Positions 21,316 through 25,391 of a DNA stretch of 33,015 bases are shown here, piece after piece (position 1 is the stretch's first letter; the number at the start of each line of letters is the position of its first letter). Under the pieces are notes generated by a model. It was given only the letters and a program-made list of their open reading frames with translations. It ran no database searches and was not told where the DNA came from. The stretch is from Candidatus Butyricicoccus stercorigallinarum. Its GTDB lineage: Bacteria > Bacillota > Clostridia > Oscillospirales > Butyricicoccaceae. The stretch spans positions 1 through 33,015 of the forward strand of contig DXIG01000083.1 of the NCBI GenBank assembly GCA_019112985.1, given 5' to 3'. A program made the translations under genes and the position numbers.

Positions 21316-21618
21316 TCACTCGCCCTCCTTTCCGAACGAAATGGCCTGGAACGGACAGACCTTATAGCAGATGCCGCAGCCCTTGCAGTGGTCAAAATCG
21401 AAGTCGGTGCGCTTGCCCGCCTTGACCGGGATGGCGGAATCCGGGCAATAGGGCGCGCACAGCAGGCACTGCTTGCACTTGGACGGATCCCAGTGCGGGG
21501 TGGTGGTGCGCCATTCGCCGGTCTTGGTCAGCACGGCCGTGCCCGGCTCATAAATTTCACAGCCCGGCGTCAGCTCATACCATTTGGACTGCTCGTTGAT
21601 CTCGTTTGCGTGAATCAT
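21316..21618 (-). CDS. 2-oxoacid:ferredoxin oxidoreductase, delta (2x[4Fe-4S]) subunit
   Basis: CKQCLLCAPYCPD and CKGCGICYKVCP; start at ATG 21618 overlapping the end of the gamma gene. Confidence 0.94.
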   Translation of the reverse strand: MIHANEINEQSKWYELTPGCEIYEPGTAVLTKTGEWRTTTPHWDPSKCKQCLLCAPYCPDSAIPVKAGKRTDFDFDHCKGCGICYKVCPFQAISFGKEGE

Positions 21619-22193
21619 CCTACTTGTACCTCTTGCATAGACTTGGTCAGAACGGTCATGTTGCCCGCGATGACCTGCGGTTTGGTTGCGAACTTGTGCT
21701 TGAACGACGCCTCCATGTTGGCGACGAACTGATCCGGGTCGACGACGCCGGAAACCTTGACGGCGGCGGCGAGCATGGGCGTGTTCGGGAAGTTTTTGCC
21801 CAGAATTTCCTCCGAGATGCGGCGCGCGTCGATCGTGCACACGCGGCCGGGGTAGTCGCCCAGCTCCTCGCGCACCTCAGCGGGGGATTTGGCGGTGTTG
21901 ACGATGATGGCGCCCGCCGGGTTCAGGCCCTGCGTGACGTCCACCGTCTCGATCAGGCTCTCGTCGACGACGACGACGTAGTCCGGGTCGTAAATGTTGG
22001 AATGCACCGTGCAGCGCTCGTCGCTGATGCGGTTGTACGCGGTGATCGGCGCGCCCATGCGCTCCGGGCCGTATTCCGGAAAGCCCTGTACATACTTGCC
22101 CGAGCTGAAAGCGGCGTCCGCGAGCAGAAGACAGGCGGTCTTCGCGCCCTGTCCGCCGCGGCCGTGCCAGCGGATCTCCACTGTGTTCTGCAT
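21615..22193 (-). CDS. 2-oxoacid:ferredoxin oxidoreductase, gamma subunit
   Basis: EIRWHGRGGQGAKTACLLLADAAFSSGKYVQGFPEYGPERMGAP matches PorC/VorC. Confidence 0.95.
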   Translation of the reverse strand: MQNTVEIRWHGRGGQGAKTACLLLADAAFSSGKYVQGFPEYGPERMGAPITAYNRISDERCTVHSNIYDPDYVVVVDESLIETVDVTQGLNPAGAIIVNTAKSPAEVREELGDYPGRVCTIDARRISEEILGKNFPNTPMLAAAVKVSGVVDPDQFVANMEASFKHKFATKPQVIAGNMTVLTKSMQEVQVG

Positions 22194-22263
22194 GAAAAAT
22201 CTCCTCCATCCATTCTATTGCAATTTCTTTTTTTTGCGTCTTCTCCCGGCTGCCACTCCGCGC

Positions 22264-22533
22264 ATCGACAAAAAAAGCTCTCATCCGTAAAAGGACGAGA
22301 GCATAGCGACTCCGTTTTACCACCTGTTACTGCATACCATCATATGAGCTTCCGATAACGGGGAAAACCGGCATGACCTACTTGCCGGGCAACCGGGTTC
22401 GGCCTGCGACTCGGGAGTGATTTTCAGACTGCGTGTACTTCTGCCGGGCTTACACTGTCCCCGGTTCGCTGCGAGGTTCGGCACAGCCATACTGTCTCCG
22501 TCGCTGTCTTTTCAGCGGAATGTTCAGTTGGTT
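22264..22533 (-). promoter_or_regulatory. T-box riboswitch leader, best specifier AUC (Ile), controlling the oxidoreductase operon
   Basis: Minus-strand Stem I motifs GCGAACCGGGGACAGTGTAAGCCCGG...GAAAATCACTCCCGAG, AAGTAGGTCATGCCGG...CCCGTTAT, antiterminator AGGTGGTAAAACGGAG...CTCTCGTCCT, then terminator GCTCTCGTCC TTTTAC GGATGAGAGC TTTTTTT. Confidence 0.93.
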
Positions 22534-22539
22534 GTTCTA

Positions 22540-22568
22540 AGTATAAGCACATTTTGCACCGATTGCAA
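22540..22568 (-). promoter_or_regulatory. SigA-type promoter of the T-box/oxidoreductase operon
   Basis: Minus TTGCAA (22568-22563), 17 nt spacer, TATACT (22545-22540). Confidence 0.82.
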
Positions 22569-22745: not shown

Positions 22746-24050
22746 GTGAAAGAGAGTATGAAGAAATATTTGGGCTGGGGTGCGACCGTGGTGGTCGTCG
22801 GCGCGCTGACGCTGCTGATCTTTTTCTGCATCTACAAGCTGGACGCGCTGCTGGCCGCGCTTTCCGGGCTGGTCTCCATCCTGATGCCGGTCATTCTCGG
22901 CATCGGCATCGCCTACGTGCTCGCGCCCGCCTACAACTGCCTGCGCGGCAAGCTGCGCCGGCTGCTGTGTCAGTCGCTGAACTGGCGCGGGCGGCGCGCG
23001 CTGCGCTGCGCGGATGTGCTCGCGATGACGGGCACGTTTCTCGGCGCGGGCGCGTTGATCGCGGGCCTGCTGTCGCTGCTGCTCCCGCAGCTCATCGGCA
23101 GCGTGACCAGCTTCGTCTCCGCGCTGCCCACCAATCTGCTGCACGTCTCGCAGACGCTGCAATCGCTGCTGGCGAGCAATCCGGAGCTGGAGCAGAACGC
23201 CATGTCGCTGTACGTGCAGACCATCAACTACATCGAGCAGTGGATTCAGACCTCGCTCGCGCCGTCCGTGCAGGACGCGCTGAGCTATGTGTCGGTCGGC
23301 CTGATGAATACGGTCACGCTGCTCAAAAACCTGCTCATCGGCATCATCGTCGCGGTGTATCTGCTGGCGGGCAAGGAAAAATTCTCACGTCAGATCAAGC
23401 GCTGCCTGTACGCCGTGCTCGGCGCGCGCTGGGGCAACGTCGCCATGGAATACGCGCGCTACGCCCATCAGATGTTCAGCGGCTTCATCGGCGGCAAGCT
23501 GATCGATTCGTTTATCATCTTTCTCATCTGCTGTGTGGCGCTGCCGCTGATGAACATGCCGTACGCCATGCTCGTGAGCGTGATCGTCGGCGTCACCAAT
23601 ATCATCCCGTTTTTCGGTCCGTTTATCGGCGCGATCCCGTCGTTCATCATCATCCTGATCGACGATCCGCTCAAGTCGCTGTATTTCCTCATCTATGTGC
23701 TCATTTTGCAGCAGTTTGACGGCAACATTTTGGGGCCCAAGATTCTGGGCAACTCGACCGGCCTGTCCAGCTTCGGGGTGCTGTTCTCCATCCTGCTGTT
23801 CGGCGGCCTGTTCGGCTTTGTCGGCATGCTCATCGGCGTGCCGCTGTTCGCCATTTTGCACCGCATCGGCTCGGACATTATCGACCGCCTGCTGGTGCGC
23901 CGCCATCTGCCGCGCGCGGAAGCGGCGTATGCGGGCACGGAGCGCATCGAAGCGGTGTGCGCGCCGCCGGAAAGCGAAGACGCGCCGCCGGACGGCGAAG
24001 ACGAGGCCGCTGACGACGAAAACGGGGCGGCGGACGGCGCGGACGGCTGA
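22746..24050 (+). CDS. AI-2E family transporter (copy 1)
   Basis: FIGGKLIDSFIIFLICCVALPLMNMPYAMLVSVIVGVTNIIPFFGPFIGAIPSFIIILIDDP...GNILGPKILGNSTGLS; GTG start. Confidence 0.94.
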   Translation: MKESMKKYLGWGATVVVVGALTLLIFFCIYKLDALLAALSGLVSILMPVILGIGIAYVLAPAYNCLRGKLRRLLCQSLNWRGRRALRCADVLAMTGTFLGAGALIAGLLSLLLPQLIGSVTSFVSALPTNLLHVSQTLQSLLASNPELEQNAMSLYVQTINYIEQWIQTSLAPSVQDALSYVSVGLMNTVTLLKNLLIGIIVAVYLLAGKEKFSRQIKRCLYAVLGARWGNVAMEYARYAHQMFSGFIGGKLIDSFIIFLICCVALPLMNMPYAMLVSVIVGVTNIIPFFGPFIGAIPSFIIILIDDPLKSLYFLIYVLILQQFDGNILGPKILGNSTGLSSFGVLFSILLFGGLFGFVGMLIGVPLFAILHRIGSDIIDRLLVRRHLPRAEAAYAGTERIEAVCAPPESEDAPPDGEDEAADDENGAADGADG

Positions 24051-24101
24051 CCGCGTTTTCCCGCGGAACGCAACGAAGAAACAGGAAAGGAGACCCGTTT
24101 T

Positions 24102-25391
24102 GTGAGAAACAGTATGAAGCGCTATCTGGGCTGGGGCGCGACGGTGGTGGCTGTCGGCGCGCTGATGCTGCTGCTCTTTTTTGGCATCTACAAGCTGGAC
24201 GCGCTGCTGGGCGCGCTGTCCGGCCTGCTCTCCATCCTGTCGCCCGTACTGTTCGGCATCGCCATCGCCTATGTGCTCTCGCCCGCCTACAACTGGCTGC
24301 GCGCCAGGCTGCGCCGCCTGCTGTGCCAATCGCTGCACTGGCGCGGGCGGCGGGCGCTGCGCTGCGCGGATGTGCTCGCGATGACGGGCACGTTTCTCGG
24401 CGCGGGCGCGCTGGTCGCGGGTATGCTGTGGCTGCTCATCCCGCAGCTCATCAGCAGCGTGAGCAATTTTGTCTCCGCGCTGCCCGCCAATCTGCTGCAC
24501 GCCTCGCAGACCTTACAGGGTCTGCTGGCGGACAACCCGGAGTTAGAGCAGCACGCCATGCTGCTGTACGCGCGCACGCTCAGCTACATCGAGCAGTGGG
24601 TGCAGACCTCGCTCGCGCCGTCCGCGCAGGAGGCGCTGGGCTATGTGTCGGCGGGGCTGATGAACACGGTCGCGCTGCTGAAGAACCTGCTGATCGGCGT
24701 CATCGTCGCCATCTATCTGCTGGCGGGCAAGAGCGGCTTTCTGCGCCAGATCCGGCGCAGCCTGTACGCCGTGCTCGGCGCGCGCGGCGGCAATCTCTTT
24801 TTGCGCTATGCGCGCTATGCCCATCAGATGTTCAGCGGCTTTATCGGCGGCACGCTGATCGATTCGTTTTTCGTCTTTCTCATCTGCTGCGTGGCGCTGC
24901 CGCTGATGCACATGCCGTACGCCATGCTCGTGAGCGTGATCGTCGCCGTCACCAACATCATCCCGTTTTTCGGGCCGTTCATCGGGGCGGCGCCGTCCTT
25001 TGTCATCATTCTGATCGACGACCCGATCAAATCCATCTATTTTCTCATCTATATTCTCATCCTGCAGCAGTTGGACGGCAACATTCTGGCGCCCAAGATT
25101 CTGGGCAACTCGACCGGCCTGTCCAGCTTCTGGGTGCTGTTCGCCATCCTGCTGTTCGGCGGCCTGTTCGGCTTTGTGGGTATGCTGCTCGGCGTGCCGC
25201 TGTTCGCCGTGCTGCACCGCATGGTGAGCGACGGCATTTCCCGCCTGCTGGCGCGCCGCCGCCTGCCGGACGACCCGGCGGCGTATGCGTGGCTGGACTA
25301 TATCGATGAGACGACCGGACAGCCGGTGAAGCGCCAGCGCGCGCCGGCGTGCGGCGCGGGGGCGGACGCCCCCGGCGACGGAGAGGAGTAG
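24102..25391 (+). CDS. AI-2E family transporter (copy 2)
   Basis: Paralogue of 22746-24050 with the same motifs; GTG start after GGAAAGGAG. Confidence 0.94.
   Translation: MRNSMKRYLGWGATVVAVGALMLLLFFGIYKLDALLGALSGLLSILSPVLFGIAIAYVLSPAYNWLRARLRRLLCQSLHWRGRRALRCADVLAMTGTFLGAGALVAGMLWLLIPQLISSVSNFVSALPANLLHASQTLQGLLADNPELEQHAMLLYARTLSYIEQWVQTSLAPSAQEALGYVSAGLMNTVALLKNLLIGVIVAIYLLAGKSGFLRQIRRSLYAVLGARGGNLFLRYARYAHQMFSGFIGGTLIDSFFVFLICCVALPLMHMPYAMLVSVIVAVTNIIPFFGPFIGAAPSFVIILIDDPIKSIYFLIYILILQQLDGNILAPKILGNSTGLSSFWVLFAILLFGGLFGFVGMLLGVPLFAVLHRMVSDGISRLLARRRLPDDPAAYAWLDYIDETTGQPVKRQRAPACGAGADAPGDGEE

Follow-up and report, generated by a model that had tools for sequence, protein, structure and literature searches.

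T-boxes are leader RNAs in which the uncharged cognate tRNA stabilises an antiterminator. Those of the Ile class are known on ileS and on branched-chain amino acid biosynthesis genes, and share with the leader described here the canonical elements, the AUC specifier, the UGGN bulge and the antitermination layout. The present leader differs from them in its target, a ferredoxin oxidoreductase encoded by four por genes, in a score below the Rfam gathering cut-off, and in an unusually conserved Stem III. The main text of Wels 2008 (PMC2494555) makes no mention of such a target, and no T-box on such an enzyme was found in the open literature, a scope outside which fall the surveys Vitreschak 2008 and Gutierrez-Preciado 2009, where a table entry is possible. 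The T-box is ordinary in kind; what is new is the target, which would add a redox enzyme class to those under T-box control, and the gene candidate that results.

No dedicated gene is known for the activity called 2-oxobutyrate synthase (EC 1.2.7.2). Ferredoxin-dependent formation of 2-oxobutyrate from propionyl-CoA and CO2 has long been reported from anaerobes, clostridia among them (Buchanan 1969 and later work, going by its citation in PMC7476758). PorGDAB would share with it the reaction and the role in isoleucine synthesis of anaerobes; 2-oxobutyrate synthase has been described as an activity, whereas PorGDAB would be a candidate gene set with isoleucine-specific control. A second known route, from propionyl-CoA and formate by PFL/TdcE of E. 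coli (PMC7476758), has precursor, product and anaerobic setting in common with the route proposed for PorGDAB, and differs in relying on a glycyl-radical enzyme and formate rather than on ferredoxin and CO2. According to the same paper, published in 2020, this formate-lyase route may account for some of the reported ferredoxin-dependent carboxylation.

The window analysed here is a stretch of 33,015 nucleotides from Candidatus Butyricicoccus stercorigallinarum (contig DXIG01000083.1, positions 1 to 33,015). The promoter, leader and operon on its minus strand comprise the following features.

22568-22540, minus strand: sigma-A-type promoter, TTGCAA-17-TATACT (pattern scan, 9/12 matches)
22513-22288, minus strand: T-box leader RNA with Stem I, Stem II, IIA/B, Stem III and antiterminator (RF00230 and covariation)
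22421-22419, minus strand: specifier codon AUC (Ile), then A (sequence reading, calibrated register, 55/55 relatives)
22331-22348, minus strand: Stem III hairpin, of GCATATGNTGGTATGC type in relatives (97.7% of cells paired, both-side changes at 4/6 pairs)
22319-22322, minus strand: UGGU in the antiterminator bulge, predicted to bind the tRNA 3' end (sequence reading)
22292-22325, minus strand: antiterminator, AGG/ACGG with UCGU/CCU (98% and 91% of cells paired in its two helices, with both-side changes)
22277-22302, minus strand: intrinsic terminator, 10-pair stem and T7, alternative to the antiterminator (pattern scan; 95.7% of cells paired, six pairs with both-side changes)
22193-21615, minus strand: porG/porC, gamma subunit (TIGR02175, 212 bits, above cut-off)
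21618-21316, minus strand: porD, ferredoxin-like delta subunit, overlapping the porG stop (TIGR02179, 95 bits, above cut-off)
21312-20131, minus strand: porA, alpha subunit (PorA_Arch, 477.9 bits against an equivalog cut-off of 550; POR_N above cut-off)
20124-19195, minus strand: porB, beta subunit, thiamine diphosphate half (PorB model, 361.4 bits against a curated cut-off of 405)

Two tandem AI-2E/YtvI-like membrane proteins are encoded divergently from this operon (22746-25391, plus strand).

The original prediction of a full T-box leader with SigA promoter, antiterminator and terminator is borne out by direct reading, pattern scans and covariation. With permissive filters, RF00230 aligned along its whole length (model positions 1-219) to minus-strand 22513-22288 at 61.2 bits; the E-value is 8e-13 for a search of 701 bases and 5.9e-13 for one of the 2.1 Mb genome. 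This score falls under the Rfam gathering score of 93 bits, which is why a default Rfam scan of the window returned tRNAs only and missed the leader. In the whole genome, RF00230 yielded ten T-boxes including the por leader, 4 of which score below the gathering cut-off; default annotation thus under-reports T-boxes in these GC-rich Clostridia. When the leader was folded as a single sequence no signal emerged (z -0.48), in keeping with the mutually exclusive states of a switch. A similar promoter sequence precedes the leader in close relatives. The antiterminator sequence AGG-UGGUAAA-ACGG matches its UCGU-CCU pairing partner as had been described, and the UGG of the bulge is invariant across the leader alignment. 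UGGU is present in the leader and would pair with the discriminator A first suggested for the tRNA; one pattern search of the draft genome did not find tRNA-Ile(GAU). Elsewhere in the window, at 708-1051 on the plus strand, lie three consecutive tRNA-Leu genes with anticodons GAG, CAG and CAG, the CAG copies being apparently identical in the cmscan alignment.

Direct reading places the specifier AUC at 22421-22419, ahead of the conserved A and the 3' strand of Stem I, in agreement with the codon first proposed. To calibrate the register it was applied to the genome's other T-boxes, where its reading agrees with the amino acid of each target gene: CTC for leuA, GTC for ilvBN-C-D and valS, TGG for trpE, TTC for pheST, and ACC for thrS; the alaS T-box was read by eye as GCC. 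A DAHP-synthase operon also gives TTC. No Ile T-box other than the por leader was found in this genome, ilvBNCD being under a Val and leu under a Leu T-box.

Relatives of the alpha subunit were sampled from 80 loci. Gene order is G-D-A-B in the 79 loci with all four genes, the remaining one being cut by a contig end. A leader search open to any codon recovered complete leaders at 55 of the 80 loci, and the specifier is AUC in all 55, never Val or Leu. These leaders span Butyricicoccaceae, Oscillospiraceae (including Clostridium viride), Anaerovoracaceae (Sinanaerobacter, Emergencia, Hornefia and Aminicella), Syntrophomonadaceae and one Peptococcaceae genome. Leader presence requires five changes on the alpha tree, compared to 20 in shuffles, and the leader is retained along most of that tree; its distribution fits a single old gain and a few losses. 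In an alignment of 36 leaders, 92% of cells are standard pairs and 26 of the 41 pairs carry substitutions in both partners, with a covariation score of 0.39 (0.21 when shuffled, at most 0.13 with partners slid). The terminator state is supported by covariation equally to the antiterminator state, and sequence conservation of Stem III (GCATATGNTGGTATGC type) is unusually high. Retention of AUC in every leader, together with stems that covary far above shuffled and slid controls, excludes chance, and the por leader is almost certainly an Ile T-box. At one locus, in Desulfosudis (Thermodesulfobacteriota), a Syntrophomonas-like por operon carries upstream of porG a shortened, apparent T-box remnant which retains the start of Stem I and the terminator; this points to a transfer after which control was lost.

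All four family-domain subunits are encoded in a single operon with the gamma-delta-alpha-beta arrangement first noted, which would assign the enzyme to the four-subunit POR/VOR class of 2-oxoacid:ferredoxin oxidoreductases. The two models whose cut-offs are exceeded by gamma and delta, TIGR02175 and TIGR02179, describe a pyruvate/2-ketoisovalerate subfamily. Substrate class was judged by profile scores, which do not prove substrate, and by these scores the enzyme falls short both of the PorA/PorB pyruvate synthase equivalogs and of VOR: alpha reaches 341 bits with the VOR alpha model (cut-off 646), below its POR score, and beta 292 bits with the 3-methyl-2-oxobutanoate dehydrogenase beta model (cut-off 405), below its PorB score. 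All four subunits are nearer to POR than to VOR models. Subunit set and fold family are shared with Pyrococcus POR (9bt4), whose alpha subunit is the nearest solved relative of alpha (301 bits), and with other four-subunit PorGDAB enzymes; the alpha motif reads PININNDH in the window and PINIWNDH in Pyrococcus. None of the alpha motifs inspected separates members with the T-box from those without it.

That the closest models are pyruvate synthase subunits, and the nearest solved relative a POR alpha, speaks for an ordinary pyruvate:ferredoxin oxidoreductase or pyruvate synthase that has come under an Ile T-box incidentally. We consider this unlikely: there is no obvious reason to tie a pyruvate enzyme to isoleucine alone, with a specifier invariant across families, or to keep the leader along so much of the tree. 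Moreover, the genome also holds two single-chain PFORs and one IorA, so that porGDAB is additional to, rather than itself, the housekeeping pyruvate enzyme. The non-housekeeping role envisaged in the original prediction is strengthened by comparison, as is the carboxylating, biosynthetic direction it considered possible.

Under the mechanism proposed here, isoleucine shortage would lead uncharged tRNA-Ile to bind the leader through the AUC specifier and the UGGU bulge, upon which the antiterminator would form and porGDAB would be transcribed. The enzyme would then work reductively, converting an acyl-CoA, CO2 and reduced ferredoxin to a 2-oxoacid committed to isoleucine. Most likely it would act as a 2-oxobutyrate synthase on propionyl-CoA, feeding IlvBN-IlvC-IlvD and an aminotransferase and bypassing threonine dehydratase. 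Judged from regulation and genome content, a reductive role in isoleucine precursor supply is probable, and the assignment of propionyl-CoA and 2-oxobutyrate as substrate and product is a tentative one. In many gut and syntrophic Clostridia, the four-part ferredoxin enzyme is a probable candidate for the synthesis of isoleucine from propionate and similar fatty acids. Conserved and with strictly Ile-specific control, the operon gives the ferredoxin route a defined set of genes that can be tested, one that occurs both in gut butyrate producers and in syntrophs; if the proposal is correct, it would help to annotate a POR-like branch currently called pyruvate synthases, and would mean that gut bacteria make an amino acid out of short-chain fatty acids.

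Reactions of 2-oxoacid:ferredoxin oxidoreductases are reversible, and PorGDAB could in principle run in the oxidative direction, removing 2-oxoacids to gain energy or balance redox, in which case the T-box would sense nutrient state. This is very improbable, as isoleucine shortage should raise PorGDAB and oxidation would then burn the scarce precursor, while a reductive role makes sense of such induction. The AUC specifier is, moreover, shared with genes of isoleucine supply. In C. viride, ilvA, encoding threonine dehydratase, has its own AUC T-box (L161/L168; G027:C1:439482-439726) in the same genome as the T-box-controlled por operon, so that por is co-regulated with a known isoleucine-specific step; in Hornefia and Aminicella ileS bears an AUC T-box. 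These leaders tie por to isoleucine supply.

IlvC was found in 34/34 sampled leader-bearing genomes besides that of the window. Among the 34, six (G003, G019 Hornefia, G020 Aminicella, G022, G033 and G034) have neither a threonine dehydratase nor a citramalate synthase recognisable with the models used, these being drafts in which absence is provisional; in two others (G028 and G029) the threonine dehydratase matches are partial only. The genome of the window encodes three proteins of the CoA-transferase family, potential activators of short fatty acids, as well as one aminotransferase of the IlvE type. Against the proposed reading, no propionate gene is linked to the por operon. A threonine dehydratase of the TIGR01127 type is present in the window's genome and in most relatives with the T-box, and citramalate synthase occurs in Syntrophomonas and in a single further genome with the leader, so that the propionate route is not always needed. 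That por everywhere substitutes for a missing threonine or citramalate route is ruled out, since just those six genomes lack both.

A further point against 2-oxobutyrate is that ilvBNCD in the window's genome is under a Val T-box only. Cells starved for isoleucine and replete with valine would induce the oxidoreductase but not IlvBNCD, which would suit a product that bypasses IlvBNCD. This is the main argument for carboxylation of 2-methylbutyryl-CoA to 3-methyl-2-oxovalerate, from which a single transamination would give isoleucine, leaving IlvBNCD to serve valine and leucine only. Such a division fits the T-boxes of this genome, where ilvBNCD has one for Val, leu one for Leu and por one for Ile, and 2-methylbutyrate is reported as an isoleucine precursor in rumen anaerobes (work cited in PMC7356843) and likewise in C. 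sporogenes (going by a title among the references of PMC7476758). On the other hand, the subunits score higher with POR than with VOR models, a branched-acyl-CoA enzyme would be likely to serve valine and leucine too, for which no specifier occurs among the 55 leaders, and IlvC is retained in every sampled genome with the T-box. The branched substrate is accordingly possible yet doubtful, and 2-oxobutyrate from propionyl-CoA, favoured by isoleucine-only control combined with POR-like subunits, is the more likely of the two. The original suggestion of a branched-chain 2-oxoacid enzyme providing isoleucine and valine precursors stands in its isoleucine part, given the invariant AUC; its valine part is weakened by the separate T-boxes for valine and leucine, and its branched substrate by the model scores, 2-oxobutyrate being favoured at least as much.

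Directly 3' of porB, 16 loci (e.g. L091:8182-9096) in Syntrophomonas, Peptococcaceae and C. viride encode a CbiT-like protein of about 305 residues; in Butyricicoccus the gene lies away from the por operon (C9:7428-8330 in the window's genome), and no T-box was seen upstream of such stand-alone copies. Orthologues (>280 bits) are present in 24 of 35 leader-bearing genomes, the window's included, compared to 2 of the 16 that lack a complete leader, a co-occurrence which shared ancestry could explain in part. An old, widespread ferredoxin-dependent isoleucine pathway composed of the Ile T-box, porGDAB and a dedicated CbiT-like partner appears highly unlikely. In its boldest form, PorGDAB would convert butyryl-CoA to 2-oxovalerate and the partner would methylate this at C3 to the isoleucine keto acid. 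This is just a long shot: the predicted fold is CbiT-like, but the SAM-binding motif, a glycine-rich GxGxG loop in CbiT, is altered and reads ISGESIAVEAA. A different part for the partner in such a pathway would be compatible with the altered motif.

Other T-boxes and neighbouring genes were seen in the same material. At L136 (G022) and L140 (G027), and at L165 and L166, a PaaK-type aryl-CoA ligase and an ACT-domain gene are under a TTC (Phe) T-box, which looks like control of phenylalanine supply from phenylacetate. An AMP-forming acyl-CoA ligase at L139 (G033) and L167:5473-7215 is under a T-box seemingly reading TAC (Tyr), possibly for a route from 4-hydroxyphenylacetate to tyrosine. In the window's genome, contig C139 (L169:4574-8522) carries an IorA gene immediately preceded by one for an acyl-CoA ligase, and also bears a Trp T-box before a transporter.
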